Positions 12,079 through 30,685 are shown, counted from the stretch's first letter. The stretch: DNA of 64,000 nt from Bdellovibrionales bacterium (GCA_019637855.1 JAHBUX010000003.1:62001-126000); one strand, 5' to 3'. The notes: generated by a model not told the origin, from the sequence alone. Numbers and translations: made by a program.

Positions 12079-12827
12079 GCCAGGCAGCAATCGAGTTCGC
12101 CAATGTCGCCAAGTCTTTTCAGACCTGGCATGAACGCCCGCACTCTTTAAAAGAGGTTTTAGGCGACTTGATGATGCTTCGTCTTAAGGCAGGATGCGTT
12201 GAGCGCACTTCTGTTTTACGAAATATAAATTTGTGTATAAACAAGGGCGATTTTGTCGGCATAATGGGACGAAATGGAGTCGGAAAAAGCACCTTATTGA
12301 AGATGATCGCCGGAGTTTATCGCCCAACAGAAGGCACAATTCATACACATGGAAAAATTGCCCCCTTACTAGAACTCGGCGCTGGATTTGCACCCGAACT
12401 TAGCGGACTGGAAAATATATATCTAAATGCCTCGATTCTTGGCTTCGGCCACAACGAGGTAAATAGAAAAATAAACGAAATTCTCGAGTTTTCTGAACTC
12501 AAGGAGGCCATTAACCGCCCAGTTCGAAACTACTCAAGCGGCATGCTTGTTCGACTAGGATTTTCTATCGCAGTTCATTTAAATGCAGATTTACTTTTAT
12601 TTGACGAAATTCTTGCTGTAGGTGATGTCGGTTTTCAAAATAAATGCCTACAAAAAATTGATGAGCTGCATAAACTAGGAAAGACTATTATCTTAGTTAC
12701 TCACATTCCCGAGCAGGTCGAGGCATTCTGTAGCCGCTGCATCGTACTTGATCAAGAGGGCGTAATTTACGACGGGCTGCCGAATATAGGAGCAGAAAAT
12801 TACCGCCACCTATTTCATCAACGGTAG
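12075..12827 (+). CDS. wzt: ABC polysaccharide export ATPase (Wzt/KpsT/TagH type)
   Basis: A 250-residue ATPase partnering the permease at 11287. The Walker A is GRNGVGKSTLL, the Q-loop region lies near LLELGAGFAPELSG, the signature is NYSSGMLVRLGF, the Walker B is LLLFDEILAVGD, and the switch His is in VTHIPEQ. The LELGAGF...ELSGLENIYLN block is specific to polysaccharide exporters. It ends soon after the nucleotide-binding domain, so it lacks the C-terminal carbohydrate-binding domain found in long Wzt proteins that read chain-end caps. Its 3' end overlaps the convergent gene by 10 bp. Confidence 0.92.
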   Translation: MSQAAIEFANVAKSFQTWHERPHSLKEVLGDLMMLRLKAGCVERTSVLRNINLCINKGDFVGIMGRNGVGKSTLLKMIAGVYRPTEGTIHTHGKIAPLLELGAGFAPELSGLENIYLNASILGFGHNEVNRKINEILEFSELKEAINRPVRNYSSGMLVRLGFSIAVHLNADLLLFDEILAVGDVGFQNKCLQKIDELHKLGKTIILVTHIPEQVEAFCSRCIVLDQEGVIYDGLPNIGAENYRHLFHQR

Positions 12828-15634
12828 ACTTCGAACGACCTGTAATAACCGCTCATTAACTCGAAACAAAGTTTAAACTTTCGGTAGAAAAAACGTCCAA
12901 CTCGCATCAAACGCGGTCTTGATGACAATCTCCTCATAGCCTTGGTTACTATCAACGATTTCTTGCTTATAAAAGGTCTCTCCGACCGCTCGCGATAACT
13001 AGACTGAAAAAAGTGTTCGGCTAAATAGTCAGGCGTTAAATAGAAAAGTGTCTTATACCCCTGTGTTGTCGCCACATATGAAAATAATCTTTCAAAGGCG
13101 TGGGCCAGCGTTCCTCCAACTCCTATTGGCTCCTCCGGAAAATCTTCGTAAGAAATCGTTTCATTAAACAAAGGATTAAGTGCTGAGGTTCGGTACCAAA
13201 GCATTGTTCCTACCGAAAACACAAGCTCATTCCGGTTCGGTATTTGGGGTAGCTTAAACTTGTCGAGCAAGACACCAATAAGGTCTTCCTCCTGAATCGC
13301 TGAGTGCCCAAAAGCCGAATGGATATCAAATATACCCTTGAACATAGGAGGAAATATTGTTCCGATAGACTTATCTCGGCTAAACATAGCTACAATATCA
13401 ATTGTAGCCTGAAGAGATAAAAGATTGTCGAGCAAATACCGACGCCATATTTCTCCCATGTTACTTTCATATTGCACAGATTTTTTAGAATGAAAATGAC
13501 CGCAAATATCGTATTTTTTGTGAAACGGCCTCATCTCAATCAGCCAAGGAGCGATATCCCTCCCCCGATTTGGAACCTGAATGACTCGCACTTGATCTAC
13601 ACATGACAGAACTCGCACTGAAAATATAGCTTCAAGAACTTTGACACTATTCTTGTCCGTTGTCGTAATAAACAAATCTAAATTATATTTAATCGCCTGT
13701 AAATACTCGAAAAACTCCCACGCCAAATCTAAATTATATATATGCAAGTGAATCGCGATTCTTGGCTGAGGCCTGAGGAGACCCTGACTATCTATAGAGG
13801 CTGAGTTTTTTCCATACTTAAGCATACTAGAATCAAGAAACAAACTGCCCTGAAATACATTTTTGTTTGCCCTACTCATTTTATTAAGCAAGGTATCCTG
13901 GCGAATGTGATTAAAATCATCTGCGGAAATAATCTTCGATAGTAGGTTTATACTTCGATCTTTTGGCTCAAACAGTATCGCCATAGAAGCCCTATAAATG
14001 GCAAAAAGATCGACATCGTAGACCAACGGAAGGTACTCGCTCTTGAACGTTAGACAGAACTTTTCAACAAAATCGAATATCCCGCGGTGAATATCCTGCA
14101 TCGCCTCATTCGTTGCATGATCAAAAAACTCAGTTTCGTCAAACATAGGCCGATGGTCCCGCGAATAGCCCATACAGGAAGGTTCTGCAGAGGAAAACAC
14201 CTTCTCAAATAAAAGAGGAAAGGGACCACCTGGCAATTTACCAAGCAGGCTATAAGTTTTGATTTTATAGCCACGATCTCTTTTCTTGTTTAAGGAATCC
14301 CAGAGAGATATTTTGTCAATTTTGGTATTCACCAGATTCATAATGTCTAGAGGGACATAGCCATCATTACTATGATCGAAGATGGCAACCCTCTTGGACT
14401 CACCAAAACAAGTTTGAAAATACTTTTGCGCGCACCGCAGGTTTTCATTCAAAATCTGAGTGCATCTGGCGAGGTCGGTTATAGAAGCTTCGATCTTCAC
14501 CTTAAGATTTTCTGGTTTTATCTCTAGAAGTCGCTGATTTTCTGATTCTTTAAAATACTGTCTGAGTCCACTCAAGTAAAAAAGAGTTCGAAGGTCACAA
14601 TCTGAACTTCTAGCTTCCTCTGCGGCAGCCAAAAGAAACTCGACAACAGATCCGGTGTATTTCGACACCAACAAAGATCTATAGCTACAATATAGCTGTT
14701 GAGCCTCACAACCGGCATTCAATTGCCTACGAATGAATTCATAAACCTTCATCGGTATAAAGCCATTGCGTGAAGTAAAAAATATTTTGTCGTAGCCTTT
14801 CTGAACAGCCGAAAGATGGAGAACTCTCAAAGCGATTCCTAAGGCAAATGGCCCAAGAGCGTAATAACCAAAATCGTATAGATTATGGAATTTTTGATCG
14901 GCGGCCTTTGACTTCAAGGCCCTTTCTTCAGCAGCGAGGAATCCCAACACAAATGAAGATCGATCTGCGCCCCGTAAGTGATATCCACGCTCAAGCCTTA
15001 CTTCTCTATAGTGATAAGCCACTATACCTTTCTGAAGTGGCACCTTGAAATCGGATATTTCGTTGTCTCCTATGTGAAGCATCTGCGCAGGTTCTATGCC
15101 CTCTTTCGCAAGCACATGATCAAATAGAGCGCCAGAATCTTTCCTCTTCTTTAGATCCGAAGAAACGTAAAGCGCATCGTAATCTATTTTATGTTTCTTC
15201 AGTATCGCTTCAATCACAGACGACGGAAGATAGATATCCGATAAGATTACGATTCGCATATTCGCCGCACGAGCCTGCTCTAACAAGTCCACCATGTCGA
15301 TGTTTTTTAATGTTAGATCGATCTCGAGCTGAATCTCTTTGCTCTGCAGAAGAGCTCTTTGTGCATCGGTTAAATCCAGCTTGGCCTGAAGCCGATCATA
15401 AATTAGGTCCAACGTGACCTTTTCAACACCAATTTCCTCTATAAGAGAAACCTCAGATGATCGCCGAGCAGATGAAAATAATTTTTTACCGCATACGACT
15501 TTTTTGTAGTAGTCGTCCAAAAACAAAAAGAGATCGGCTGGATTCAAACAAGGGCGAAAAAGGAGCGTATCGAAAACATCAAAACTAACTACTTTAAATA
15601 AATCAGACTTAATATGGTTCTTTATGTCAATCAT
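12818..15634 (-). CDS. HAD - middle domain - RgpF fusion protein (rhamnan synthesis F-like)
   Basis: A 938-residue multidomain protein. ATG 15634 follows GAGGTGC at good spacing; the longer frame to 15748 would run into the DAHP synthase gene. Residues about 1-230 form a HAD domain: SFDVFDTLL, VILSDIYLP, a Lys in KKRKDSG, and IGDNEISDF. Next comes a block with GYYALGPFALG and FFTSRNGFIPMKVYEFI. The last 300 residues are RgpF-like: IAIHLHIYNLD, VPNRGRDIAPW, CGHFHSKKS and GTMLWYRTSALNPLF. RgpF proteins take part in rhamnan assembly, which fits the rfb genes nearby. The protein at 24620 has the same three parts in the order RgpF-HAD-middle. A glycosyltransferase role is likely; what the HAD part does is unknown. 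Confidence 0.8.
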   Translation of the reverse strand: MIDIKNHIKSDLFKVVSFDVFDTLLFRPCLNPADLFLFLDDYYKKVVCGKKLFSSARRSSEVSLIEEIGVEKVTLDLIYDRLQAKLDLTDAQRALLQSKEIQLEIDLTLKNIDMVDLLEQARAANMRIVILSDIYLPSSVIEAILKKHKIDYDALYVSSDLKKRKDSGALFDHVLAKEGIEPAQMLHIGDNEISDFKVPLQKGIVAYHYREVRLERGYHLRGADRSSFVLGFLAAEERALKSKAADQKFHNLYDFGYYALGPFALGIALRVLHLSAVQKGYDKIFFTSRNGFIPMKVYEFIRRQLNAGCEAQQLYCSYRSLLVSKYTGSVVEFLLAAAEEARSSDCDLRTLFYLSGLRQYFKESENQRLLEIKPENLKVKIEASITDLARCTQILNENLRCAQKYFQTCFGESKRVAIFDHSNDGYVPLDIMNLVNTKIDKISLWDSLNKKRDRGYKIKTYSLLGKLPGGPFPLLFEKVFSSAEPSCMGYSRDHRPMFDETEFFDHATNEAMQDIHRGIFDFVEKFCLTFKSEYLPLVYDVDLFAIYRASMAILFEPKDRSINLLSKIISADDFNHIRQDTLLNKMSRANKNVFQGSLFLDSSMLKYGKNSASIDSQGLLRPQPRIAIHLHIYNLDLAWEFFEYLQAIKYNLDLFITTTDKNSVKVLEAIFSVRVLSCVDQVRVIQVPNRGRDIAPWLIEMRPFHKKYDICGHFHSKKSVQYESNMGEIWRRYLLDNLLSLQATIDIVAMFSRDKSIGTIFPPMFKGIFDIHSAFGHSAIQEEDLIGVLLDKFKLPQIPNRNELVFSVGTMLWYRTSALNPLFNETISYEDFPEEPIGVGGTLAHAFERLFSYVATTQGYKTLFYLTPDYLAEHFFQSSYRERSERPFISKKSLIVTKAMRRLSSRPRLMRVGRFFYRKFKLCFELMSGYYRSFEVYR

Positions 15635-15656
15635 GCACCTCAATGCCCCCAAGACC

Positions 15657-17024
15657 TTATGTAAAAATGAGGTGGTCGTGAAACTCAAAGGCCGGCTTTG
15701 CCTGGAGCAACTCACAAACCTTAAATGCCAAGTCAATGGCCTGTTCATCGTTCAAACGAGGGTCACAAAATGTCTCATATTTCTCCGTCAGATCAATTTT
15801 TCTAGGACCGCCCAAGCACTCGGTGACATTTTTTCCTGTCATCTCCAAATGAAGGCCGCCGGGATAAACTCCCAGCCTCCGGCACACCGTAAAAAACTCC
15901 TGGATTTCCGATAAGATCTTCTCGACCGCGCGATACTTAATTCCGGCCTCATTTTTCTCTGTGTTGCCGTGCATAGGATCGCACATCCACACAACCGACA
16001 GACCACGAGCTTTCACGGCTGAGATTAAGCCCGTTAGGTATCTATCCACTTTACCAGCACCCATGCGTGAAATCAGAGTGATACGACCGGGAGTATTATG
16101 AGGGTTGAGCGTCTCAATCAACTGCAGCAAATCTGAGTTTGAGAGTGACGGCCCGCACTTAATGCCTATTGGATTTTCCACGCCTCGCAAAAAGTCAACA
16201 TGAGCTCCATCTGGCTGGCGGGTACGGTCGCCAATCCATAAGAAGTGCGCGGAGGTCGCGATATATTTGCCAGTACTTGCGTCCAGCCGGGTTAAAGCTT
16301 GTTCATAGGGCAACAACAACGCCTCGTGCGAGGTGTAGAAGTCCATGCGTTCTCGAGCACTTTGCTGGATGTTGTATTTTTGTATGAAATCAAACCGCTT
16401 TTGAATGAGGTGTGCTAACTCAAGGTACTTTTCTTTTATGGCCGCATTTTCGACAAAATCTAGAATCCAGTTCGGAGCCTGCTGAGTGTCGGCAAATCCA
16501 CCGGCAGCCATAGCTCTTAAAAAATTGAGAGTCGCTGTAGACTGGAAATAGGCCGTCAGTATTCGGTTCGGGTCTGGGACTCTTTCACTCTCGGTAAACT
16601 CACTGCCGTTAATAATGTCACCGCGATAGGCAGGCAAAGTAATGCCATTGATTGTTTCTGTGTCAGAAGAACGCGGCTTAGCGAACTGACCGGCACAGCG
16701 GCCAATTTTAACAATCGGCTTCTCACTCATAAAGGAAAAGATCACACTCATTTGCAGGAGGACACGAAAGGTGTCACGGATCGTTTCGGTATTAAACTCG
16801 GAAAAGCTCTCAGCGCAATCCCCTCCCTGCAGAACGAAAGTTTCGCCTTGAGCGGCACTAGCTAAAAGTTGTCTAAGTTGGAATACCTCGCCGCCAAAGA
16901 CCAATGGAGGTAGGGTTTCGAGTTTAGCCTCAACACGCTTAAGTTCGTTCTTGTCCGGATACGTGGGAAGCTGATGCGCCGCCCTGTCCTTCCAACTATC
17001 CTTGGACCAAAATTTTACTTTCAC
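15657..17024 (-). CDS. Class II (plant-type) DAHP synthase
   Basis: A 455-residue enzyme condensing PEP and erythrose-4-phosphate to DAHP, first step of the shikimate pathway. Class II blocks are all present: FVLQGGDCAESF, KIGRCAGQFAKPRS, AYRGDIING, TSHEALLLPYE, WIGDRTRQPDGAHV, SRMGAGK, WMCDPMHGNT and HLEMTGKNVTECLGG. The metal and PEP sites therefore look intact. RifH-type aminoDAHP synthases of ansamycin clusters belong to the same class and cannot be separated by eye. The gene lies 81 bp after an ATP-grasp gene and 22 bp before the HAD-RgpF gene on the same strand, within a glycan locus. It may be ordinary aromatic biosynthesis or a special pathway (see findings). Confidence 0.93.
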   Translation of the reverse strand: MKVKFWSKDSWKDRAAHQLPTYPDKNELKRVEAKLETLPPLVFGGEVFQLRQLLASAAQGETFVLQGGDCAESFSEFNTETIRDTFRVLLQMSVIFSFMSEKPIVKIGRCAGQFAKPRSSDTETINGITLPAYRGDIINGSEFTESERVPDPNRILTAYFQSTATLNFLRAMAAGGFADTQQAPNWILDFVENAAIKEKYLELAHLIQKRFDFIQKYNIQQSARERMDFYTSHEALLLPYEQALTRLDASTGKYIATSAHFLWIGDRTRQPDGAHVDFLRGVENPIGIKCGPSLSNSDLLQLIETLNPHNTPGRITLISRMGAGKVDRYLTGLISAVKARGLSVVWMCDPMHGNTEKNEAGIKYRAVEKILSEIQEFFTVCRRLGVYPGGLHLEMTGKNVTECLGGPRKIDLTEKYETFCDPRLNDEQAIDLAFKVCELLQAKPAFEFHDHLIFT

Positions 17025-17105
17025 TTCTAATCTCTTCTCAAAATATATTCTTAAAAGGCTTGACTATGAAGTCTAGGCCATAGCTCCTCGTGAGGCAAGC
17101 CACTA

Positions 17106-18245
17106 TCAAGAAAGGGTATATATATCTCGATCTAATAGAGACTTATATCCTTCTACAAGAAGGTCATGTGAATGCTGTTCGCAAAATAAAATACCCGCCC
17201 GAGTTCCCTGACGCCCAGTTAAAATCTGACCAATTGTTTGCAAAGGGAAAAAAGCACGTACATTAACAGGCGGCGAAAATTTAATGCCACAAAAGATCAA
17301 AGTATCCACGGAGGAAACGGTATGACGAAGAACATGTCGCTGTTCAAAAGATTGGGTTATCAGCTGCGTACCAACAAAATAAGATGCGTATTTGGCGGCG
17401 TATTTAAACCCGGTGCTATATTCAATCAACAACGAATAAAGATCGCCAGGACAACGGCGAGTCAACTCGATGATCCACGGACCAGATTCATTTAGAATAA
17501 ACTGAGTGTGCAGCAATCCGTCCTTCAAATTCAAAAATCCACAGAGTTTTTCCAAACTTTTCTCGAGCGTTACCATGTGCCGCTCGGGAACTGCATGATC
17601 TATATAACTTGTATCGACAGCAAATTCATATGCAGAAGAACCTTCCCGTACATAGAAAGAGTTAGTAAGTTTACCATTTTCAACGAAGGCACTACAGCTA
17701 TAAAGAGGTCCTTCAGCAAAGGTCTCAAAGATGGCTCCTGCACTCGGACTAACCTCTATAGCAGCTTGATATGCAGCCACCATTGCAGATTGATCGCCCC
17801 CATCAAAAATGGTGACACCCCTGCCGCTAAAGGCATCAACCGGTTTACAGATAAACCGTCCACACAAAGGAAAGCTCTCCTTCGCAACGACGAGCGGCGC
17901 GGGCATACTAAGTTCTTCACATAGCCGCCGGAACTCTAGTTTATTACTGATTTTCCGATTGATTTCCGGCGAGTCCGCATACGATGAACTCACCTTCAGA
18001 CGTGAGCATGTTTCAAGAGATACGTCAGTGCATCCTGGTACAACACGTTCTATGTGCAGGGCCTCAATGTGCTTCTCTACCTCGAGGTAATTTCGATAGT
18101 CCTGCTGAATCCAACGCGAGCCAGCCCTTCGAGCGAGAATATCGCCCTCACGATTGCCAATTACCCAAACGTCATGCCCCTCTTGGACTAGATAGTCATA
18201 TATGGGAACCGCAGCAAGTGCCGTATCAACAAGAAGAACCTTCAT
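17106..18245 (-). CDS. ATP-grasp domain ligase
   Basis: A 379-residue ATP-grasp enzyme started at ATG 18245 (MKVLLVDTALAAVPIYDYL), where the pre-ATP-grasp Rossmann fold begins; an ATG at 18281 is possible. The fold is shown by VVPGCTDVSLETC, the FICKPVDAFSGRGV nucleotide lysine and glycine loop, an acidic FETFAEGP strand, and IIELTRRCPGDLY with its metal-binding Glu. ATP-grasp enzymes join a carboxylate to an amine or thiol through an acyl phosphate. Relatives in glycan clusters add amino acids or acids to sugars. The partner is unknown. It precedes the DAHP synthase on the same strand, so it may use an acid from that pathway, but this is speculation. Confidence 0.8.
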   Translation of the reverse strand: MKVLLVDTALAAVPIYDYLVQEGHDVWVIGNREGDILARRAGSRWIQQDYRNYLEVEKHIEALHIERVVPGCTDVSLETCSRLKVSSSYADSPEINRKISNKLEFRRLCEELSMPAPLVVAKESFPLCGRFICKPVDAFSGRGVTIFDGGDQSAMVAAYQAAIEVSPSAGAIFETFAEGPLYSCSAFVENGKLTNSFYVREGSSAYEFAVDTSYIDHAVPERHMVTLEKSLEKLCGFLNLKDGLLHTQFILNESGPWIIELTRRCPGDLYSLLIEYSTGFKYAAKYASYFVGTQLITQSFEQRHVLRHTVSSVDTLIFCGIKFSPPVNVRAFFPLQTIGQILTGRQGTRAGILFCEQHSHDLLVEGYKSLLDRDIYTLS

Positions 18246-18390
18246 GATGTTATTTTTAGACTTAGACGGATGAAAAAGCATGCAAAACCTGACAAGTGCC
18301 CAAGCTTCTCAGAAGGACTCTCATGAATAGGGCTTGCCTTATTATCGCTGCCCAAGATAAGTTTTTCAGGTTGTTTGGAGAAGACCATTT

Positions 18391-19503
18391 ATGGCTAAGC
18401 CCTTGTATGTAGCCCAGCCTTTACTTCCCGCCTTGTCTGATTTCCACACACTTCTTGGCGAGATATGGCACTCCAAAGCTCTTACCAATGAAGGGCCTTT
18501 TCACCAACGGCTAGAGGCTGAAATTGGAAAGTATCTAGATGTCCCAACGTCGTTGCTATTCAATAATGGCACCATTGCACTTCTTGCTGCTTTAAAACTT
18601 TATGACTTGCAGCCTGGTAGTGAGGTTATCACGACACCTCTGACTTTTGCTGCGACAGCACATTCTATTTCTTGGAATGGTCTCGTGCCTGTTTTCGTTG
18701 ATGTCTTGCCAGAGAACTTAACGCTTGACCCCAAAAGTGTCGAGAAGGCAATAACCAATAAAACCTCCGCGATCATGGCCGTTCATGTTTATGGCTCCGT
18801 TTGTGAACTGGAAGCTTTACAGGAAATTGCAACACGGAATAATTTGCGTCTTTTGTACGACGCCGCCCATGCCTTTGGTGTTACTGTAAAAGGGCGCTCG
18901 ATTGCATCTTTTGGCGATGCTTCTATTTTTTCATTCCACGCCACGAAGCTCTTCAATACTTTTGAGGGCGGACTAGTGGCTACTCCAAAAGAGACGGATA
19001 AGGCATCTCTACGTTGCTTGAGAAACTTTGGAATCAAAAATGAAGAAGAAGTCGTATCCATTGGAATCAATGGCAAAATGAACGAGCTTCAGGCTGCAAT
19101 TGGCCTATTGAACTTGCCGCTCATAGAAGAAGAGAAGCGACTGCGGTCGAACTTGCGGAAGAAATACAATGAAGTCCTAGGACATCTACCAGGCATCACG
19201 ATTCAACAGCCACAGGATGGAGTATCGAGCTCCGAACAATATTATCCGTTGATTATAGACGAAGGCGCCTTCGGAAGATCTCGTGATGAAATTTACGGTG
19301 CGCTAAAAGAACACTCGATTTTTTCAAGAAAATACTTTCATCCCATTTGCACTGACTTCAGCCCCTATAAAAACTGGAAGGTCACTTCGACTAGACCTAG
19401 TCCATATGTTAACACAGTAAAATCAAGAGTACTTTGCCTTCCATTTCATAGCGGCGTGCTGGATGAACACTTTGAAAAAATATCGAAAGTGTTCGTTGGT
19501 TGA
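18391..19503 (+). CDS. DegT/DnrJ/EryC1/StrS sugar aminotransferase (VioA/FdtB-like)
   Basis: A 370-residue PLP aminotransferase. Lys186 in FSFHATKLFNTFEGGL is the Schiff-base lysine; the HATK-x-F-(N/H)-T-x-EGG form is typical of the VioA/FdtB branch, which aminates dTDP-keto-6-deoxyhexoses. YDAAHAFGV contains the PLP-ring Asp. A dTDP-glucose set (rfbBA) lies at 29810-31713 and could supply the keto sugar. It is transcribed with the gene at 19538 (34-bp gap) and divergently from the ATP-grasp gene. Assignment to a branch is by motif only; the sugar is not known. Confidence 0.88.
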   Translation: MAKPLYVAQPLLPALSDFHTLLGEIWHSKALTNEGPFHQRLEAEIGKYLDVPTSLLFNNGTIALLAALKLYDLQPGSEVITTPLTFAATAHSISWNGLVPVFVDVLPENLTLDPKSVEKAITNKTSAIMAVHVYGSVCELEALQEIATRNNLRLLYDAAHAFGVTVKGRSIASFGDASIFSFHATKLFNTFEGGLVATPKETDKASLRCLRNFGIKNEEEVVSIGINGKMNELQAAIGLLNLPLIEEEKRLRSNLRKKYNEVLGHLPGITIQQPQDGVSSSEQYYPLIIDEGAFGRSRDEIYGALKEHSIFSRKYFHPICTDFSPYKNWKVTSTRPSPYVNTVKSRVLCLPFHSGVLDEHFEKISKVFVG

Positions 19504-19537
19504 TTTTATAGCGAATGGTTAAATTGGGAAGTACGGA

Positions 19538-20866
19538 ATGGGAAAAATGCAGAGCGACCTAGGCTTTAAAGGAGCAGTAACAGGATCTACGACCTTCTCA
19601 ACATTTTCTAGTTTAGAACTTTTGATCCTTAAGCCATACCGTTTTATAATTGGCATCGCGCGCCGTTTCGTTGCGTCATTTGGATTTTTGGTCTATCGCA
19701 ACCTCCCCCTTTCAACACAGCAAAAAATACGACTGCGACATTACGCATTCAAGTTCATGCCCACTTTATTTGTGGGATTGTCATCCTATGAAGCCTGGGC
19801 TTATCAGACTTCGACCACCCGGCTGCAAGACATCCTGCTTCCCAAAGAACTATCTGCAGCCAAGAGAATTATGATCTTCTTGGTGCCAGAGCACAACGCT
19901 ATGAGCGGGGGTATATATTCAATTTTCTCAATTGCACATCAGATGTGGCGCTTTCGCCATGTGCATGGATATGAAGTTCTTGTTATGACCAGACCAACTC
20001 CTGCTAAAATGTCATACTTTCGCAATAGCCATTTCAGAAACTTTGAGAATGTTTTTCGGTTTGATCAAATACTCAGGTTCGTAGAGGCTAGAGAAATATA
20101 TCTGCACATTCCTGAATACGCGGCACCCACCTTTTTAGACTACCTGACAGAGGAAGAGTCTTCTTATCTGAAAAAACTAGAGAAGCTCCATATTAATATT
20201 CTGAACCAAAATATTAAGCTTATGCCCAGCAAAACTCAACTCCGTGCGCTGAGACATTTTTGTAAAGACCTAAGTCAGTCGGTCGCCCACCATGCTTATT
20301 ATAACCAAGGAATAGCCAATACCTATAATCTACCGACGTTGTTTATGCCCGCCTACACAGATCTTAGCAACTATCCGCCGGCCGATCTTAGTAAAAAAGA
20401 AAAATTGATCATCTATTCGCCCGACGAATCTCCCCATAAGAAAGATTGTCTGGAGCAGATTTCTCGTGAACTTCCTGAGTTCAAGTTAGTTGAGATTCGA
20501 GATATCACGTTTGACCGCTTTATGGACTATGCAACCAGAAGTATGTTTTCAATTACGTTCGGCGAGGGCTTCGACGGCTATTTGGCACAGCCGATTTTAC
20601 AGGGTGGTATTGGATTTGCGATCTACAATGATGACTTCTTTCCGTCGCCTAACTTTAAGAATTACAGCAATATCTTCGATAGTCCTGAAGATATGGTGAC
20701 AGGTATTTGCGCAAAAATAAGACATCTCAGCAAGGATCAACAGGCATATAAAATGCTGAATGTTCAGCTTTCGAATGAGTACAGTAAGCTGTACTCATTC
20801 GATGAGTATGTTGAGCAGATCAAAAGCCTATCCGTTCGTAGATTTGGGCTGCTTCCTCATTCTTGA
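19538..20866 (+). CDS. Putative glycosyltransferase (GT-B-like, unassigned)
   Basis: A 442-residue protein I do not recognise with certainty. The region after residue 105 reads like the N-terminal half of a GT-B glycosyltransferase (IMIFLVPEHNAMSGGIYSIF, a glycine-rich loop after the first strand). A second half holds LIIYSPDESPHKKDCLEQIS and FSITFGEGFDGYLAQP, similar to the nucleotide-sugar half of GT4-type enzymes with its EGFG-like acidic motif. The first 80 residues are basic and aromatic and may lie on the membrane. It follows the aminotransferase gene on the same strand, so transfer of an amino sugar is plausible. The start could also be ATG 19547. Confidence 0.55.
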   Translation: MGKMQSDLGFKGAVTGSTTFSTFSSLELLILKPYRFIIGIARRFVASFGFLVYRNLPLSTQQKIRLRHYAFKFMPTLFVGLSSYEAWAYQTSTTRLQDILLPKELSAAKRIMIFLVPEHNAMSGGIYSIFSIAHQMWRFRHVHGYEVLVMTRPTPAKMSYFRNSHFRNFENVFRFDQILRFVEAREIYLHIPEYAAPTFLDYLTEEESSYLKKLEKLHINILNQNIKLMPSKTQLRALRHFCKDLSQSVAHHAYYNQGIANTYNLPTLFMPAYTDLSNYPPADLSKKEKLIIYSPDESPHKKDCLEQISRELPEFKLVEIRDITFDRFMDYATRSMFSITFGEGFDGYLAQPILQGGIGFAIYNDDFFPSPNFKNYSNIFDSPEDMVTGICAKIRHLSKDQQAYKMLNVQLSNEYSKLYSFDEYVEQIKSLSVRRFGLLPHS

Positions 20867-20963
20867 GGTTATGCCGACGTCGCCTTTTCGGCTAAGTTTA
20901 GAAGAAACCCCTACGCAGCTAGTATTTGACACCCTATTGATGGCCTGCGTTCTTTCAAAGACC

Positions 20964-22256
20964 TTACATACGCCGTTTAATCCAGCGCAGAGGGGCAGCG
21001 ATTCTCCGCGAAGCTTTATTCAACCGATGGAGCAGAAGACGGCCCGGGAATCGCGCTGAAGGGCCGCGCGCGTGAGCAAAAATCACAGTTTCATCGCCAT
21101 GAACCGTACTGTGCTGCAGATAGAACTCGTAACCCAATTTCAGTCGATCGATTTCTTGTGGAATTTCAAAGAAATCAATTAGCTTATGATAGACACTGAT
21201 CGCTAAGGTCGGTCGATATTTTATAATCGTCTCGAGACCACCTCGTAACGCCATCATCTCGGCTCCCTCAATATCCATCTTGATAAGATCAACCCTCGGC
21301 AGCCTCTGCTCCCTAACAGTCTCATCGATTGAAGTAGCAGTGAATTTAAGACTACCTGATCGTAAAGACGTAGATGCAGATGTTTTGCCGCTATCTACAT
21401 GAACTTGTGTTGCAGGCCCACTACCTTCAATTGACATAGTGGCGCCTGGCTTTATCCAAACCGGTCTTGGTATGACCGTAATCCTCTTGGCAAGATCAGG
21501 ATTTAGCCTCATATTCTCTTCGAAGATTTTTAAATTTCCCGGAAAGAATTCATAAGAAATGACTCTTCCGGTTGAACCAACAGCTTGGGCGAAATTTAAA
21601 GACGTACCCCCAAAGCAAGCGCCACAATCGATGACGTAGTCGCCCTCCTGGGGGCGAATTACATTTTCACGCCCACGCATATAGTATTGCGAGTATATAA
21701 ACTCATTGAAGACGCCGAATGCGTCGGAATATAATTCTACGTTGTCACCTATTGCGCGTAGATTCATCTTATTCATTTTATAGGGACTCAACCCGGCCAG
21801 AGCGGTTTCGTCAAGACTTTGGCCGTCCTTTTCGAGCGTTACCAGATCGCTCAAACAGTCCCAAAAATTCTTGCTATCTAGAGGCATCTGAACGTAGCGC
21901 CAACCAAGAGATCGATAAGCGAGTACAGTCAGCAACAACATCTTAGAGTCTGAGTCAGCAAGATGCCGATAAAGCCAATCTAAATTGTTTTTATATTGGT
22001 CCACCACGGAAAGAGCATGACGAACCAAAGCGCTTGTCTTAGCGTCCGTATCCTGAATCGACGAGACATCGATACCATATGGCTCTGGTGACATTCCAAA
22101 GTTTTTTCGGTGATACCGGTCGACATTGCCATTAATCGCGCACCACGAAACCACATTCGTAAAATCGACCAGAAAATCTCCGGATGGTTCCTTGATAGCA
22201 CTCCATGCAATTGGGTTTTCCTCAAACGTTCGATGGGGATTTTTTATAGCAATCAT
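20964..22256 (-). CDS. FkbM family methyltransferase
   Basis: A 430-residue protein whose C-terminal half is an FkbM-type SAM methyltransferase: YVIDCGACFGGTSLNFA (motif I), RVISYEFFPGN, and VDLIKMDIEGAEMMALRGG. The first 190 residues are an extra domain of unknown role, so it is longer than most FkbM proteins. Its ATG overlaps the stop of the Gfo/Idh gene by 4 bp; the two form an operon. FkbM enzymes in glycan loci usually O-methylate sugars. This is one of three FkbM genes in the locus. Confidence 0.87.
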   Translation of the reverse strand: MIAIKNPHRTFEENPIAWSAIKEPSGDFLVDFTNVVSWCAINGNVDRYHRKNFGMSPEPYGIDVSSIQDTDAKTSALVRHALSVVDQYKNNLDWLYRHLADSDSKMLLLTVLAYRSLGWRYVQMPLDSKNFWDCLSDLVTLEKDGQSLDETALAGLSPYKMNKMNLRAIGDNVELYSDAFGVFNEFIYSQYYMRGRENVIRPQEGDYVIDCGACFGGTSLNFAQAVGSTGRVISYEFFPGNLKIFEENMRLNPDLAKRITVIPRPVWIKPGATMSIEGSGPATQVHVDSGKTSASTSLRSGSLKFTATSIDETVREQRLPRVDLIKMDIEGAEMMALRGGLETIIKYRPTLAISVYHKLIDFFEIPQEIDRLKLGYEFYLQHSTVHGDETVIFAHARGPSARFPGRLLLHRLNKASRRIAAPLRWIKRRM

Positions 22257-23422
22257 AATCCGCTCCCTACTTTACCCTCTTGCATCGATTCCCACTGTTG
22301 CGTCTCGGCAGAGGAGTTTATGGTTTCCATCATCTTGAGACCTTCAAGCGCGGTATCAAGACTATAAATGTCGAAGTCTTTCAAATCCTGCTTCGCCGCT
22401 TTCTTCTCCATTAGGATGGCAACATCCCAATAAAAATTGGCAAGTGCCTCGATAAATCCTGCTGGATGACCAACTTTAAACCGTGCATAGCGGGACTCAG
22501 ACGCGACTACAATAGAGTTATTCCCCCGATCGATCACGGTGCGATTACCATAGACATCAGAGAGCGCTAGCTCTTCTGGATATTGTTGGACCCATTCGGC
22601 GCTGCCAATTTCACCCAAGACACGAACGCTCAAACCGTTACTTCGGCCAAGTGCGACTTTGCCATACCAAATGTTGGCAACCAGCCCCTCCTCGTAACTT
22701 GCAAGGCAATTAACGTTGTCGATAATATCCGAGAAGTTCCCAAGGCTATCGCATTTAGCAACGAGCCTCTCAGGTGAGAGGCCTGTAAGATATCGAATGA
22801 TAGAATGCACGTGAACACCTAGATCCAGGGATACAAACGACACTCTCTCTGGATCTCTAAGGCGCCAGCTTTGCGGCACCATGGGTGTATTATCCTTTTT
22901 TAGCTTAGCAAAGCCTTCTTGCGGCATTTCTATATGGATTTGATGAATTTTGCCCAAGCGCCCCACTTCAATCAAATGTTTGAGCTCACGCAACATGGGA
23001 TAACCTAAATAATTGTAGACTACCGCAAGGTCAAAATGGCCTTTCGGCATAATTTCTTTGAGGCGAAGAATCTCTTGTACCGACGTAGCAAGCGCTTTTT
23101 CACAGATCACGAAAACTTTTTTTTGTAGGCACTTCTCGACTTGTTCGAAGTGCAAATCGGTCGGCGTGATGATCAGAGCCGCATCAATATTGCCCGCTTC
23201 CTTTTCCAACAACTTGTCGACATCTTCATATACGCGATTGGCGGGCACTCCAAAGCTTTCAGCTGTTTCTATATTAATTTTGTGATCGCGACTAAAGCTT
23301 CCAGATACAACTTCGAATTTACGATCCATACTTAAAGCAATACGGTGGGCGCGGCCTACGGCCGATCGGATTGACCCACCGATACATGCCACTCGAAAAG
23401 GTCTAGACAATTCGTTGCTCAC
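22253..23422 (-). CDS. Gfo/Idh/MocA family oxidoreductase
   Basis: A 389-residue NAD(P)-dependent sugar or cyclitol dehydrogenase. GTG 23422 is chosen because GGGGAG lies 4 bases upstream and the Rossmann fold starts at FRVACIGG. ITPTDLHFEQVEKCLQKKVFVICEKALA holds the catalytic Lys of the EKP motif, here EKA with Ala for Pro. LDLGVHVHSI and GHPAGFIEALANFYWD mark the substrate domain. RifL-type enzymes of the kanosamine/AHBA pathway belong to this superfamily, but so do many unrelated enzymes. An A8 run in the coding strand (plus 23117-23124) encodes the QKK stretch. It is coupled to the FkbM gene. Confidence 0.85.
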   Translation of the reverse strand: MSNELSRPFRVACIGGSIRSAVGRAHRIALSMDRKFEVVSGSFSRDHKINIETAESFGVPANRVYEDVDKLLEKEAGNIDAALIITPTDLHFEQVEKCLQKKVFVICEKALATSVQEILRLKEIMPKGHFDLAVVYNYLGYPMLRELKHLIEVGRLGKIHQIHIEMPQEGFAKLKKDNTPMVPQSWRLRDPERVSFVSLDLGVHVHSIIRYLTGLSPERLVAKCDSLGNFSDIIDNVNCLASYEEGLVANIWYGKVALGRSNGLSVRVLGEIGSAEWVQQYPEELALSDVYGNRTVIDRGNNSIVVASESRYARFKVGHPAGFIEALANFYWDVAILMEKKAAKQDLKDFDIYSLDTALEGLKMMETINSSAETQQWESMQEGKVGSGL

Positions 23423-23537
23423 GTTCTCTCCCCGCCAGCAGGCTGCAGCGCTGCAATTGATCCACAACAAAAGACCATTTAAGGCTGGTGGACCCTTCCT
23501 TATACGCGAAAAATAAAATATAAGTATTCAGACTCGT

Positions 23538-24644
23538 ATGGAACTAAATTTTAATAAAATTAACGTAAATGTCCCTGGTAACAACTACGAAATTCAGATT
23601 TCTGCAGGTGGACTCGAGAGTTGCCTTGAATTGATTCTAAAAACCCACAGTCCCGATCGACTTATAGTAATTACGGACACGAACGTAGCCCCCCTTTATC
23701 TTAAGTATTTTCCCGAGCAGTCCAGCTTACCTATGCATGTCATTACGGTTCCTGCAGGGGAAGCGACAAAGTCATTCGATAACTTTCAAAATATTTGCGA
23801 GGATATTTTGCGTTTCGGTGTGACCCGAAAATCTGTTCTCGTGGCCCTTGGCGGAGGAGTGGTTGGCGATCTGGTAGGCTTTGTGGCCAGCACTTTGTTG
23901 CGTGGTTTACGATTTGTACAAGTGCCAACTACCCTTCTCGCGCAGGTCGACAGTTCGGTCGGGGGGAAAACTGCCATCAACAGTAAGTATGGCAAAAACC
24001 TAGTCGGCGCTTTTCACCAGCCGAGCTTAGTCATCATCGACGTTTTGACTTGTCACACGTTGGCTGAGGCAGATTTCATCGACGGTTATGCTGAAATTTT
24101 AAAGTATGCGCTGATCGACGATGGCGATTTTTTTATCTGGTTGAATGAGAACTTGCAGGCCATTCAGAAGCGCGACCCACAGTTTCTTCAAGAAGCGGTA
24201 CATATAAGTTGCCTAAAGAAAGTTAAATACGTAGAGGCCGATGAGCGCGAGCAGAATGTTCGTGCACTTTTGAACTTTGGGCATACATTTGGACATGCAA
24301 TAGAATCCCTATCCAACTTCTCCATTTCACATGGTGCGTCTGTGGCCATTGGGATGTGCATGGCCTCTGAATTTAGTTTCTCTCTCGGATTAGTTGGCGA
24401 GGATGTCCATCGGAAGATCCTAGATCATGTGGGTAGAGCCCGTTTACCTACGCGCTGTGCCTTTTCAATTCAACAGATGCTGCCTTTCATGCGCAAAGAC
24501 AAGAAGGTCGTTTCTTCCGATGGTCTAACTTTGATTTTGCTTGAAGACCTCGGACGAGCTGTAGTTCGCTCTCGATTGCCCGAAGAATCACTTGTTCGCC
24601 ACTTTGGATCCTCAGATTCTCAGACGAGCCCTCTACCACAGTAG
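23538..24644 (+). CDS. aroB: 3-dehydroquinate synthase
   Basis: A 368-residue NAD- and metal-dependent cyclase turning DAHP into 3-dehydroquinate. GGGVVGDLVGFVASTLLRG binds NAD. VPTTLLAQVDSSVGGKTAIN and GKNLVGAFHQP are active-site blocks; the Glu of YAEILKYALI and the two His of NFGHTFGHA and SHGASVA region are the usual metal ligands. It reads as a true DHQ synthase rather than a 2-deoxy-scyllo-inosose synthase, although an aminoDHQ synthase (RifG-like) cannot be excluded. It is divergent from the Gfo/Idh gene, and its 3' end overlaps the convergent RgpF-HAD gene by 25 bp. Confidence 0.93.
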   Translation: MELNFNKINVNVPGNNYEIQISAGGLESCLELILKTHSPDRLIVITDTNVAPLYLKYFPEQSSLPMHVITVPAGEATKSFDNFQNICEDILRFGVTRKSVLVALGGGVVGDLVGFVASTLLRGLRFVQVPTTLLAQVDSSVGGKTAINSKYGKNLVGAFHQPSLVIIDVLTCHTLAEADFIDGYAEILKYALIDDGDFFIWLNENLQAIQKRDPQFLQEAVHISCLKKVKYVEADEREQNVRALLNFGHTFGHAIESLSNFSISHGASVAIGMCMASEFSFSLGLVGEDVHRKILDHVGRARLPTRCAFSIQQMLPFMRKDKKVVSSDGLTLILLEDLGRAVVRSRLPEESLVRHFGSSDSQTSPLPQ

Positions 24645-27211
24645 TCGTCATCAAGTAGGACCTGACGTAAGGTCCGTGATTCCGACAAATATTGCCTAGA
24701 GGCAAAAAGTCCAAAGATCTCGGTAACCATCTCACACTCAGGCCTGAGTGTCGGCGCAATGGTTTTCCTCAGCCTCACAATGTCATCAACATACTGATCA
24801 ATACCACTTTGGAGCTTAGCTCTCCACGGGCGAGTCGCCAACTCACCGGACCTAAGTTCTTTATAATTGGGTATTCCCGCATGGTAGTTCACAACCTGGG
24901 CTTCATCCGAACTCAAAAGCTTTTCCAGTTCAAAACTATTCGCCAAAACTTTACATGACAGTCCATCAACAATACCTTCACCGAAACATCCGGCTACCCG
25001 AACTTGAAAGCGGTCGCGCACCATCAAACTCTTGGAATTTGTTGCGAGATAAAATCCATGCACTGGCTTGTCCAAAATGACATTGAGTGCAGCCTGAATC
25101 GTTCCCGCGTAGCCTATATCAACAACACCAACATCCTTGACATCACCAAATTCGGATAAATATCGCAGCAAACACGGCAACTCTGCGTCCTTCTGCGCCT
25201 CGATTTCAGGCCACAGCTCTTTCAGCAAAGGCTCAATGGGATGCACATCTTCATTCTGAATGACAAAACGCGAATCTTCTACCCACACCCCTTGATCGCG
25301 CAATTCGCCAATTCGTGCAGTGGTCAGGCTGATTCCAAAACGCTCTCTTAGAAAAGCAGATCCCCCCCCCGAATGATAGCTGGACTTCGCAATATTCAGA
25401 ACATCAGAAAATGAACGGATTGACGGCACACCAACAGATCTCCGCGAAACGACCATGTACCTGGACTCGGGTGACTGCGCATCTCTGCCGTAGAGCTTAT
25501 CATACACGCGCTTAATCACTTGTCCTTCACGGGAAAGAAACCAAAGCTTTTTTATCCCAGACGCCCGCGCTTCGTCATAGAGCCACGCCGCAAAGTGAAC
25601 TATTAGCGGACCTACTACGCTATAGCCAATGTGACTTACGTCGTTTGATACGGGAATATGACCGACAGAGCCTGGGTCAAGACCAAGAGTTTGAAAGTTC
25701 GCGTTGGCCAGCAACCCGCCCGTTACCTGATCATTTACCAGGTCGGACTGAAAAGCGTGCTCCATAACCACACTTAATCGCGGCCAGCCTCGGGACAGTT
25801 CGGCGGGACGCAAAATGTGGAATGCCTTCATTCCCAGGGCTGAAGGTAGATGAAAATCGGAGAACTCGTCATCTCCGATCATCAGGCAGTCTCCAGGCTC
25901 TAGATTCTCTTCTTTCAAAATGCGCCTATAAACGTCGCCCGTGTATCTACCAAGCTCACCGCCTTCGGACAGATAAAGAGAGTTCCATCTACGGATCCCC
26001 GCCTCTTCCAGCATTTTTTCGATCGCCCCTTTCGGAAGAGAACAATCGCCGATCAAAATCACACGCTTATCAAGAGACAAAGCCTTGTTGAAAGCCCGTA
26101 TCAGATCATGTCGCGGCTGTGCGAGTGCCCTTTGATGCATACCGAAGGTACGAACAAAATCAGGATGCATAAACGGCTGTAATAGTAGCGTATCCGAAAT
26201 ATCAAAAATCACTGCTTGTATAGCGCGATCCTCAATCTGCTTGTCCAGCTCAGCGGCCGGACGCGCGACATATTGATCAAAGTTCCAAAGCGACCAATGT
26301 CCTGGATCCTTGTCATCGGTCAATACAACTCCGCTATACCCTTGTTTTTGGGCTACGAGAAAAAAAAGACGCTCCAAGCAATCGGCTAGGGATCCCTCTG
26401 CTGGGTCAGACTCCTCATGAAAGTCGCCGGGCTGAAGCCCCAGATGGAATAAAGGCTGAAGAGATTGGGTACGAGCCCAGAACATCGAGCCTCCAGGATA
26501 ATGGAAGTATCCGGACGGCGTACGAATTCCCAGTCTCTCGCACAGTTTGACACCTTCGACTCTATTCGCGAGCCAGGTGCCGGCCGTATAAGGAACCAGC
26601 GAAAAGCTTTGCGGATACACAATGCCAACGCGTTGATCACGGAAGAGATGAAAAATTTTACGAATGTCTTCCACTCCACCAATCAGTGCCTCAAGAAGAT
26701 ACTCACGCCAGCCCCTGAGCAAATTTTTAGTATGAAAATGCCCGATGAAATCATGCTTGAGTAGTCGCACTCCGAACTGACAAAATAACGGTGCAATATC
26801 CCGACCGCGATTCACGACAAATTCGATAGCCAGCTCGTCAATATTGGAAAGATCTGAAAATGCCTTTAAGCAAGTCTCTCTCAATGAGAGATCTGCAACT
26901 GAAACGTATAGAGAAAACCTAAAAGGCATGAGACCCAGGTGCCTACGCATTTCAGATATCGAGTCAACTTGACAAATGTGAATGTGAATCCCGATCGATC
27001 CAGGAGATTCGGTCGAGACACCAGCGACGGACTTGATATTTATAATATCCAAATCCGCGAATGAAAGCTCTGGCGACAAAGATGTCTGGCTTGAGCGCCA
27101 AACCCTATAGTGAGCCACATCAGAAAATATAAACCCAAAATAGGAATAGACGAAATCAACGGCAAACGCCCGCAACCGTGCCGGCAAAAGCCGGTAAAAC
27201 GATCGGCCCAT
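24620..27211 (-). CDS. RgpF - HAD - middle domain fusion protein (permuted relative of 12818-15634)
   Basis: An 863-residue protein started at ATG 27211, with GGAAG upstream; TTG 27247 is a longer alternative. Residues about 50-320 are RgpF-like: IGIHIHICQVD, VVNRGRDIAP, GHFHTKNLL, and GGSMFWARTQSLQPLF. A HAD domain follows (IFDISDTLL, VILIGDCSLP, MIGDDEFSDF), in which motif II has Gly instead of Ser/Thr and motif III has Arg for Lys. The last third contains GYSVVGPLIVHFAAWL and LWFLSREGQVIKRVYDKL, matching the middle block of the protein at 12818. The order of modules is therefore permuted. A run of nine G in the coding strand sits in the SGGGS codons and could slip. Likely a rhamnan-type glycosyltransferase. 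Confidence 0.78.
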   Translation of the reverse strand: MGRSFYRLLPARLRAFAVDFVYSYFGFIFSDVAHYRVWRSSQTSLSPELSFADLDIINIKSVAGVSTESPGSIGIHIHICQVDSISEMRRHLGLMPFRFSLYVSVADLSLRETCLKAFSDLSNIDELAIEFVVNRGRDIAPLFCQFGVRLLKHDFIGHFHTKNLLRGWREYLLEALIGGVEDIRKIFHLFRDQRVGIVYPQSFSLVPYTAGTWLANRVEGVKLCERLGIRTPSGYFHYPGGSMFWARTQSLQPLFHLGLQPGDFHEESDPAEGSLADCLERLFFLVAQKQGYSGVVLTDDKDPGHWSLWNFDQYVARPAAELDKQIEDRAIQAVIFDISDTLLLQPFMHPDFVRTFGMHQRALAQPRHDLIRAFNKALSLDKRVILIGDCSLPKGAIEKMLEEAGIRRWNSLYLSEGGELGRYTGDVYRRILKEENLEPGDCLMIGDDEFSDFHLPSALGMKAFHILRPAELSRGWPRLSVVMEHAFQSDLVNDQVTGGLLANANFQTLGLDPGSVGHIPVSNDVSHIGYSVVGPLIVHFAAWLYDEARASGIKKLWFLSREGQVIKRVYDKLYGRDAQSPESRYMVVSRRSVGVPSIRSFSDVLNIAKSSYHSGGGSAFLRERFGISLTTARIGELRDQGVWVEDSRFVIQNEDVHPIEPLLKELWPEIEAQKDAELPCLLRYLSEFGDVKDVGVVDIGYAGTIQAALNVILDKPVHGFYLATNSKSLMVRDRFQVRVAGCFGEGIVDGLSCKVLANSFELEKLLSSDEAQVVNYHAGIPNYKELRSGELATRPWRAKLQSGIDQYVDDIVRLRKTIAPTLRPECEMVTEIFGLFASRQYLSESRTLRQVLLDDDYCGRGLV
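25362..25370 (-). repeat. Nine-G homopolymer inside the RgpF-HAD coding strand
   Basis: Nine C on the plus strand give nine G in the coding strand, spanning codons for Ser-Gly-Gly-Gly-Ser. Gain or loss of one base would shift the frame and remove about the last 250 residues. Tracts of this type act as phase-variation switches in surface-glycan genes of other bacteria. Confidence 0.9.
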
Positions 27212-27365
27212 TTTAACCACTTCCGACTTAAGCACTTTTTTAACCAAAATGGCCTACCCCACACCGCGACGCAACAGCAGTTCTTTAGATGGATTAATCT
27301 AATGAAAAACAATAAGAATATCAATATGGCTGCAGATCAATACAGGCGCCATTCCCAGGAGCTTC

Positions 27366-27923
27366 ATGGAAGTTGTACAGACGCATCTTAACGGCGTTTG
27401 CCTTATCATCCCTCGATGTTTTCTCGACCTAAGAGGTTTTTTTACGGAGAGATTTCGCGTCGACCTATGGCAACAACACTTTCCTGAACATGGTGGCTTC
27501 ATTCAAGATAATTACTCGTGGTCGAAAGCCAAAGTCCTGCGTGGTTTGCACTACCAGGCCGAGCCAGTCCAAGGAAAGCTGGTAACATGCGTAGCGGGAT
27601 CCATTCTGGACGTCGTTGTCGACCTTCGTAAGGGCTCCCAAACCTACGGTGAGTACGACGCGTTTTCCCTATCGGCTGAAAAGCCTCAGTGGCTTTGGGT
27701 TCCACCAGGCTTCGCCCACGGCTTTTTTGTCACCAGCGACTCTGGCGCTGGTGTGGCCTATAAAGTGGACAGTCTTTACAATCCAAAAACCGAAGGCTCT
27801 TTACGCTGGAATGACCCGACACTTAACATAGACTGGCCCGATAAAAATCCGATTTTGAATGAGAAAGATAAGCTCGCCGATCTATTTTTGGACTACGATA
27901 AAAATCCTCGCTTCCGAACCTGA
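27366..27923 (+). CDS. rfbC: dTDP-4-dehydrorhamnose 3,5-epimerase
   Basis: A 185-residue cupin-fold epimerase (RmlC) of dTDP-L-rhamnose synthesis. VLRGLHYQ holds the catalytic His, VVVDLRKGS and WVPPGFAHGFFV are family blocks, and AYKVDSLYNP carries the conserved Lys/Tyr region. ATG 27366 follows AGGAGCTTC. It is separated from the other three rfb genes, which are on the opposite strand 1 kb downstream with an FkbM gene between. It is divergent from the RgpF-HAD gene. Confidence 0.95.
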   Translation: MEVVQTHLNGVCLIIPRCFLDLRGFFTERFRVDLWQQHFPEHGGFIQDNYSWSKAKVLRGLHYQAEPVQGKLVTCVAGSILDVVVDLRKGSQTYGEYDAFSLSAEKPQWLWVPPGFAHGFFVTSDSGAGVAYKVDSLYNPKTEGSLRWNDPTLNIDWPDKNPILNEKDKLADLFLDYDKNPRFRT

Positions 27924-28941: not shown

Positions 28942-29808
28942 CTACGCCTTTCGCGCACAATCCTCTAGCGCCGACGTCCAACTGCGTAGTCCTATCTGAA
29001 AATCGGTTGATATTTTTTCTAAGGAGAGTCGTGAATTTAGTGGACGTTTTGCTGGTGTTGTATATTCACTGCTCTTAACCGGAATGACATTTTTTACTTT
29101 GAGATCTTTGCCTGCCGCTTTCAACAGCTTGAATATTTCGACTGCAAAGCCATACCAAGACGTGACGCCACCATTTGCCAAATTATAAATGCCGTTGAGA
29201 GCTAAAAAATCGCGATGTTCAACTATCTGCCGTATTGCTCGAGCAAGATCCAGAGCATATGTGGGCGCACCTATTTGATCATCGACAATGCGTAACTCTT
29301 CTCTCTCACCGCCCAATCTAACCATAGTTTTAAAGAAATTATTTCCAGTTCGACTATATACCCAAGATGTCCGCAGAATTATGTGATGACAGTCGCTACT
29401 TTTCACAGCGACTTCTCCGGCTAGCTTGCTCTCTCCATACACGTTGATCGGATCTGCAATATCGTTCTCAAGCCATGCCTTTTCGCCATTACCGCTGTAA
29501 ACATAGTCGGTAGAAACATGAACAAGCGAGCAATAATTAGACTTACACCATGCCGCGATCTCACGCGGAGCCTCTCCATTAATAGCAAAGGCGCTTTGCC
29601 GATCGCTTTCGGCCTTATCTACGGCGGTATAAGCCACTAGATTGACGACTACTCTTGGTCGCATACTATCCAATATAGAATGAATATCTGAAGGTCTCTC
29701 AAAGTCACATTCCAAGCGAGATACATAGCGGGCATTCTCTAGAACCTCGCGCAGAGCAGTGGAAACTTGGCCTGAATATCCAAATACCAATATTTCCTTC
29801 TCATTCAT
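28942..29808 (-). CDS. rfbD: dTDP-4-dehydrorhamnose reductase
   Basis: A 288-residue short-chain dehydrogenase (RmlD) that gives dTDP-L-rhamnose. VFGYSGQVSTAL is the dinucleotide loop (GYSGQV in place of the more common GxxGQLG), VNLVAYTAVDKAE and VHVSTDYVYSG are family blocks, and YGESKLAGE is the catalytic YxxxK. WVYSRTGNNFFKTM follows. It is last in the rfbB-rfbA-rfbD operon, one base after rfbA. Confidence 0.94.
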   Translation of the reverse strand: MNEKEILVFGYSGQVSTALREVLENARYVSRLECDFERPSDIHSILDSMRPRVVVNLVAYTAVDKAESDRQSAFAINGEAPREIAAWCKSNYCSLVHVSTDYVYSGNGEKAWLENDIADPINVYGESKLAGEVAVKSSDCHHIILRTSWVYSRTGNNFFKTMVRLGGEREELRIVDDQIGAPTYALDLARAIRQIVEHRDFLALNGIYNLANGGVTSWYGFAVEIFKLLKAAGKDLKVKNVIPVKSSEYTTPAKRPLNSRLSLEKISTDFQIGLRSWTSALEDCARKA

Positions 29809-29809
29809 C

Positions 29810-30685
29810 TTAGAGCAATCCGTGTTTTAATAGTCCACGCAAGTAGTTCCCATAAGCTCCTATAGGTAGCTTTTCGACAATTTCAAGTAGCTTTTCCTTA
29901 TCGATAAATCCTTTGTGAAAAGCAATCTCCTCAAGGCAAGCGATCTTCAGGCCCTGACGTTCCTCAATAGTCTGAACAAAATTAGCGCTCGATAGCAATG
30001 TCTCAGGAGTTCCAGTATCTAGCCAAGCAACTCCGCGACCCATAAGTTGCACATCCAACTTCCCCATTTCCAAATAGCTTCTATTTAAGTCAGTAATCTC
30101 AAGTTCTCCACGTTTCGACGGCTTTAATGCACGAGCATAAGATGTTACATTACCATCATAAAAATATAGTCCCGTAACTGCCCAATGGGACTTAGGCTCT
30201 TTAGGCTTTTCTTCAATCGATATCGCTCGCATTTGGTCATTAAACTCAACCACGCCGTAGGCTTCGGGATTGCGAACATGATAAGCAAATACTTGAGCTC
30301 CATCAGTTAACTTTGCAGCCTGATTGAGTGTCTGTGAAAACTCATGGCCATAAAAAAGATTGTCGCCCAGAATTAAGGACACCGGCTGCCTATCGATAAA
30401 GCTTTCTCCTATGAGAAAAGCTTGCGCGATACCAGCAGGTTTTTCTTGAACACGGTACTCAAACCGCACACCAAGTTCACTACCATCTCCAAGAAGCGAT
30501 TCAATCATCGGGAGATCGCGAGGCGTGCTGATAATCAATATTTCGCGGATTCCCGCCAACATCAAAACCGACAACGGATAGTAGATGGTTGGCTTATCGT
30601 AGACCGGCAGAAGCTGCTTGCTGACAGCACGAGTCATCGGAAACAATCGAGATCCGGAACCTCCGGCTAAAACGATCCCCTTCAT
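29810..30685 (-). CDS. rfbA: Glucose-1-phosphate thymidylyltransferase
   Basis: A 291-residue nucleotidyltransferase (RmlA) making dTDP-glucose from dTTP and glucose-1-phosphate. [16 protein letters not shown] is the nucleotide loop, [11 protein letters not shown] the base and phosphate site, [10 protein letters not shown] the metal Asp, and VTGLYFYD a sugar-site block. Its ATG overlaps the rfbB stop by 4 bp. It feeds dTDP-L-rhamnose and possibly dTDP-amino sugars made by the aminotransferase at 18391. Confidence 0.96.

Follow-up and report, generated by a model that had tools for sequence, protein, structure and literature searches.

Gene clusters of the AHBA/aminoshikimate type, such as the rif set described in PMC8788734, are built from the same broad enzyme families as the locus reported here, i.e., class II DAHP synthase (DAHPS), 3-dehydroquinate synthase (DHQS), DegT aminotransferase, Gfo/Idh oxidoreductase and HAD proteins. 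As a reference for this type we took a cluster of Streptomyces shenzhenensis (L044), with genes assigned from its ORFs, that contains a Gfo/Idh-HAD fusion, an AHBA-synthase-like DegT, a type II dehydratase, a RifG-like cyclase, a RifH-like DAHPS and a ROK kinase. However, each of these enzymes in our window (the whole stretch of 64,000 nucleotides that was analysed) falls in a different subfamily and several of the steps are absent from it. The VioA pathway found in the flagellar-region locus of a Burkholderia glumae plasmid (H86/L126) has an aminotransferase like ours (46.9% identity), but its acyl part consists of a ketoacyl synthase, an ACP and an acetyltransferase, where the window has an ATP-grasp protein and a Gfo/Idh oxidoreductase. 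Two Rhizobium plasmids (L120 and L121) carry ATP-grasp, Gfo/Idh and VioA genes adjacent to each other, all three homologous to those of the window (30, 47 and 46% identity, respectively), although with no DAHPS or DHQS nearby. Members of the sugar phosphate cyclase family are likewise found within glycan loci of relatives (the TIGR04425 cyclases of G001 and G110), but with neighbours unlike those of the window DHQS. Finally, the primary shikimate entry enzymes (TIGR01357 and TIGR01358) resemble the window pair in sequence, active-site columns and phylogenetic placement, the differences being the location of the pair in a polysaccharide locus, its long branches and the presence of a complete primary set elsewhere in the genome.

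The genome (3.37 Mb, 99.98% complete) belongs to a member of the Bdellovibrionales, and the polysaccharide locus is a block from about 11 to 37 kb of the window around the aro-type pair. ABC exporter genes, two RgpF-like proteins, rmlABCD, several glycosyltransferases, FkbM methyltransferases and a flippase-like gene were found in it, a content that bears out the polysaccharide setting proposed for the enzyme set in the initial annotation. The G+C of the genes in the block was 41–50%, versus 53–56% in the flank past 39 kb. The ORFs of the DAHPS, DHQS, DegT, Gfo/Idh and ATP-grasp proteins are intact and coincide exactly with the coordinates given for them before, and profile searches, with significant matches, agreed with their family assignments. 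The genes are the following:

12818..15634, minus strand: HAD and RgpF-like glycan protein, HAD-IA match fused to RgpF; possible ORF start at 15748
15657..17024, minus strand: class II (type IIA-like) DAHP synthase, extra copy, GTG start (PF01474, 629 bits; TIGR01358, 618.6 bits)
17106..18281, minus strand: ATP-grasp carboxylate-amine ligase-like protein (PF02655, 24.8 bits, weak; homologue in the Rhizobium trio)
18391..19503, plus strand: VioA/DesI-type sugar 4-aminotransferase (DegT), predicted product dTDP-Qui4N (PF01041, 309 bits)
19538..20866, plus strand: protein without family match, candidate glycosyltransferase (homologue near a VioA-type gene in Hymenobacter)
20964..22256, minus strand: FkbM-type methyltransferase (homologue in a Peribacillus exosporium glycan locus)
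22253..23470, minus strand: Gfo/Idh oxidoreductase, start probably at 23422 (PF01408/PF22725)
23538..24644, plus strand: 3-dehydroquinate synthase (AroB), extra copy, canonical active site (TIGR01357, 350.8 bits)
24620..27247, minus strand: RgpF-like glycan protein (RgpF match), degenerate HAD-like motifs by eye
27366-27923, plus strand: rmlC (TIGR01221)
28942-31713, minus strand: rmlD, rmlA and rmlB (sequence reading)

The rmlABCD genes are predicted to supply dTDP-4-keto-6-deoxyglucose and dTDP-rhamnose. The DAHPS gene is located between the ATP-grasp gene (81 bp gap), upstream and in the same direction, and the first RgpF-like gene (22 bp gap), the three on one strand, and is apparently co-transcribed with both. 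The DHQS gene is divergent from Gfo/Idh and does not form one operon with the DAHPS gene. Of the HAD modules described before on both flanks, the one at 12818-15748 was found, fused to RgpF, while the protein at 24620-27247 matched RgpF and had no significant HAD match; both are multidomain glycan proteins and not free phosphatases. Single-sequence structure models of the ATP-grasp protein and of the 19538-20866 product gave a pLDDT of 35, too low to be informative. Upstream there are KdsA- and KdsC-type genes that belong to ordinary Kdo synthesis, separate from the DAHPS.

The window copy is the only class II DAHPS of the genome. The class I family gave two matches, one of them the KdsA of the window and the other, on contig C12, a DAHP synthase that belongs to class I-beta and was identified as DAHP_synth_Bsub. 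C12 carries also a second aroB, together with aroA, aroC and a gene for a fused shikimate kinase/shikimate dehydrogenase protein that probably, by reading, has a dehydratase part as well; the DAHP synthase and menaquinone genes are close by. The second DAHP synthase and aroB that the initial annotation proposed to look for are therefore both present, in a complete primary set, and the window pair is additional. The genome gave one match to the AroE N-domain and none to type II dehydroquinase, and thus no second gene of the shikimate/quinate-dehydrogenase type was found. Since a complete and separate primary aro operon exists, aromatic biosynthesis does not depend on the extra pair. It ends precisely at the first carbocyclic acid of the pathway, and duplicates of two successive steps would lie within 9 kb of each other in a 3.37 Mb genome with a chance probability of about 0.4%.

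Both window enzymes have the features of primary ones. The DAHPS scores above the cutoff of the class II equivalog (618.6 bits, cutoff 614.7), its active-site motifs are intact and it retains 88 of the 92 columns invariant in primary enzymes, including the region lost in secondary ones. The DHQS is above the aroB equivalog cutoff (350.8 bits, cutoff 305), retains 39 of the 40 columns near-invariant in primary AroBs and is canonical at G110, F115, S139 and K189, positions where RifG-type enzymes (that of L044 and a related Streptomyces enzyme) have T, L, A and R. Its assignment to the AroB-related cyclases of TIGR04425 was rejected by score (263.7 bits, cutoff 400) and by a GGKT motif instead of the GSKS variant. 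Judging from these residues, the product of the pair should be ordinary 3-dehydroquinate (DHQ) and not amino-DHQ. In the DAHPS tree the window copy was placed outside the clade of its phylum (100/97) and inside a primary clade formed with that clade and Alphaproteobacteria (95/91), whereas in the DHQS tree it grouped with proteobacterial AroB (93/96) and not with the AroBs of the phylum. The terminal branches were long in both trees. By their placement, and by the 88 retained columns of the DAHPS and the four canonical residues of the DHQS, neither enzyme belongs to the RifH or RifG group; both branch with primary enzymes, away from the L044 counterparts. The initial annotation had set two things against its own proposal, that the window copies were the sole aro genes and that they branched with primary enzymes: the first is ruled out by the C12 set and the second is what the trees show.

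Among 148 genomes of relatives only two other class II DAHPS were found, both in the same order and in trp or tyr operons, and across 369 genomes of the phylum 15 others gave a match; where the neighbours could be read, they were tyrA or other aro genes. Almost every relative has a single AroB, in most cases 30–37% identical to the window DHQS, and those in the loci that were read mostly belonged to the C12 type, as part of aroB-aroA operons. Vertical inheritance from the class II DAHPS and aroB operons of the phylum was not supported, as the window genes fall outside both clades, and the position of the two sequences indicates that both were likely acquired horizontally from outside the phylum. 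AroB matches on plasmid records of Lactococcus and Streptococcus corresponded to ordinary aroB contexts. A second DAHPS and DHQS pair in a polysaccharide locus was not found in 57 named loci or in the 369 phylum genomes.

Regarding the aminotransferase, the best match among solved structures was 2po3, which we take to be DesI (the entry is labelled "4-dehydrase"), with 210 bits versus 99 for AHBA synthase. The identity was 30% to the RifK of L044 versus 47% to VioA, and among plasmid genes the B. glumae VioA was the closest, so that the protein is not of the RifK/AHBA synthase type. The score was below the cutoff of the narrow DesI equivalog (282 vs 650 bits); the protein is nearest to characterised dTDP-4-keto-6-deoxyglucose 4-aminotransferases and rmlA and rmlB are present, which makes it a VioA/DesI-type enzyme whose product should be, from its sequence, dTDP-Qui4N. 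The family score of the ATP-grasp protein was weak (cutoff 23.2). The Gfo/Idh protein has the catalytic K and D/H motifs, among solved structures it is nearest to uncharacterised or cyclitol-type family members, and it is not of the RifL type, with no BLAST match at 1e-3 to the RifL-RifM fusion of L044. Homologues of it in G268 and G270 were in unrelated contexts.

In Rhizobium leguminosarum (L125) we found a VioA 96% identical to that of the Rhizobium trio, with WbqC and GNAT genes replacing ATP-grasp and Gfo/Idh and with similar flanks (paired iminopeptidases, a LuxR regulator and an ABC transporter). This looks like the exchange of an N-acylation module, and the analogy suggests that the N-acyl group of Qui4N is the product of the VioA, ATP-grasp and Gfo/Idh trio. 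Two ATP-grasp genes come after a VioA-like gene in Bacteroides finegoldii, again with no DAHPS or DHQS beside them. Because these two genes are missing from the Rhizobium and Bacteroides arrangements, the ATP-grasp protein there may act on an unrelated substrate.

The reading that we prefer, tentatively and with somewhat less than even confidence, is that the locus makes a polysaccharide with N-acylated Qui4N (viosamine), the acyl group being a cyclic acid for which the DAHPS and DHQS provide DHQ. RmlA, RmlB and VioA would produce dTDP-Qui4N; the DAHPS would condense PEP and erythrose-4-phosphate, and the DHQS would cyclise DAHP to 3-dehydroquinate, creating a dedicated pool. The Gfo/Idh protein might act on the keto-cyclitol acid, by reduction or another adjustment (e.g., to quinate), the ATP-grasp protein would link the carboxylic acid to the 4-amino group as an amide, and the sugar so modified would be methylated and then added to the glycan. 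DHQ, quinate, shikimate or a later derivative are candidate acids, and we infer every substrate link, including DHQ as the acyl-group precursor. In support of DHQ as precursor are the redundancy with the primary aro set, the foreign but canonical pair, the adjacency of DAHPS and ATP-grasp and the recurring trio. Against it are the trio without the pair elsewhere, the pair in no other polysaccharide locus found, the weak family scores of the ATP-grasp protein and the lack of a common operon for DHQS and DAHPS. A narrower version, with a quinate or DHQ-type cyclitol acid made by the own DAHPS and DHQS of the locus, modified on the ring by Gfo/Idh and amide-linked to Qui4N by the ATP-grasp protein, is rather unlikely. 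We know of no glycan structure with quinate on Qui4N, and in the open literature (subscription journals were mostly outside the search) we found nothing relevant on O-antigens with quinate or shikimate, or on either acid attached to viosamine, nor a description of such a link from the shikimate pathway to a glycan. Of the shikimate- or aminoshikimate-derived group initially proposed for the glycan, the shikimate-pathway origin stays as the best explanation and the aminoshikimate part does not.

The main alternative, a serious one, is that the pair are spare primary enzymes, isozymes or hitch-hikers on exchanged DNA, with no role in the glycan, and that the VioA module uses an amino or hydroxy acid or something else. 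Polysaccharide loci are hot spots of genetic exchange, and canonical active sites and a primary-type phylogeny fit this possibility; as the trio exists elsewhere without DAHPS and DHQS and the pair was not found again, it is nearly as likely as DHQ being the acyl precursor. However, the genes for two consecutive steps both remain intact in a 9-kb stretch where glycan genes on either strand are interspersed with them, with the DAHPS apparently sharing a transcript with the ATP-grasp and a glycan gene, in a genome where the primary pathway was already complete. It is improbable that the pair boosts the flux to chorismate, a later aromatic acid (e.g., 4-hydroxybenzoate or protocatechuate) being the substituent: the later steps are present once, on C12, and could serve for this, but we recognised neither a dehydratase or lyase nor an aromatic-acid enzyme among the genes of the block. 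Dephosphorylation of DAHP and its use as a Kdo-like sugar acid (3-deoxy-heptulosonate) would agree with the HAD domain adjoining the DAHPS and with the Kdo-type chemistry of the kdsA/kdsC-type genes 5 kb off, but a canonical DHQS in the block would consume DAHP and no extra CMP-sugar-acid synthetase was recognised there, which makes it very improbable. The least credible is the aminoshikimate/kanosamine (AHBA-like) pathway of the initial annotation, unsupported beyond the broad families, given that the DAHPS and DHQS are canonical, all the enzymes are outside the L044 subfamilies, the HAD regions are parts of RgpF-type proteins and, as already noted there for kinase, transketolase and dehydratase, no RifM, RifN, RifJ or transketolase was recognised in the block or the window ORFs (kinase and transketolase by ORF reading only).

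The locus is possibly a variant of the Qui4N acylation loci and not a new kind of system, and it illustrates that a resemblance to an aminoshikimate cluster can arise from family names alone. Spare DAHPS and DHQS genes beside those for the synthesis and probable acylation of an amino sugar indicate that the coat of this bacterium may carry an unusual ring-shaped acid. If so, VioA, ATP-grasp and Gfo/Idh together, with or without DAHPS and DHQS, would be a predictive signature, the N-acyl groups of amino sugars would include a new class, and duplicated entry enzymes would feed the shikimate pathway straight into surface glycans.

The block of the window polysaccharide locus that holds the extra DAHP and DHQ synthase genes is flanked by two large RgpF-like proteins (12818-15748 and 24620-27247), both on the same strand and one of them with a fused HAD domain. 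Another DegT/Gfo-Idh pair is found at 38248-40443, and together with a hexapeptide acetyltransferase located about 40 kb away (L007, 9686-10282) it appears to resemble UDP-2,3-diacetamido-uronic acid synthesis.

The primary aro operon of this genome, adjoining men genes on contig C12 (L006, 3932-13374), codes for a 578-aa shikimate kinase/shikimate dehydrogenase fusion that probably includes the dehydratase too. Its AroB is divergent (221 bits against a cutoff of 305), with the conserved residues retained. AroB-related cyclases of the TIGR04425 type, with GSKS in place of GGKT, were detected in polysaccharide loci of two relatives, G001, of the same genus (L104, 8571-9629; 396 bits, cutoff 400), and G110 (L105, 8735-9820; 439 bits, same cutoff). 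An SDR gene adjoins in both, and in the G001 locus a ThDP-dependent enzyme is encoded as well, along with a PhyH-like gene.

An additional VioA/ATP-grasp pairing comes from another phylum, in Bacteroides finegoldii (L146, 7989-12447), where a VioA-like gene has two ATP-grasp genes after it, together with an oxidoreductase gene. In Rhizobium, VioA is near-identical between two plasmid loci (L120 and L121) and the R. leguminosarum equivalent (L125), but the downstream sets differ, ATP-grasp plus Gfo/Idh in the former and WbqC plus GNAT in the latter. This looks like a natural allele swap, and the exchanged sets are probably N-acyl modules.
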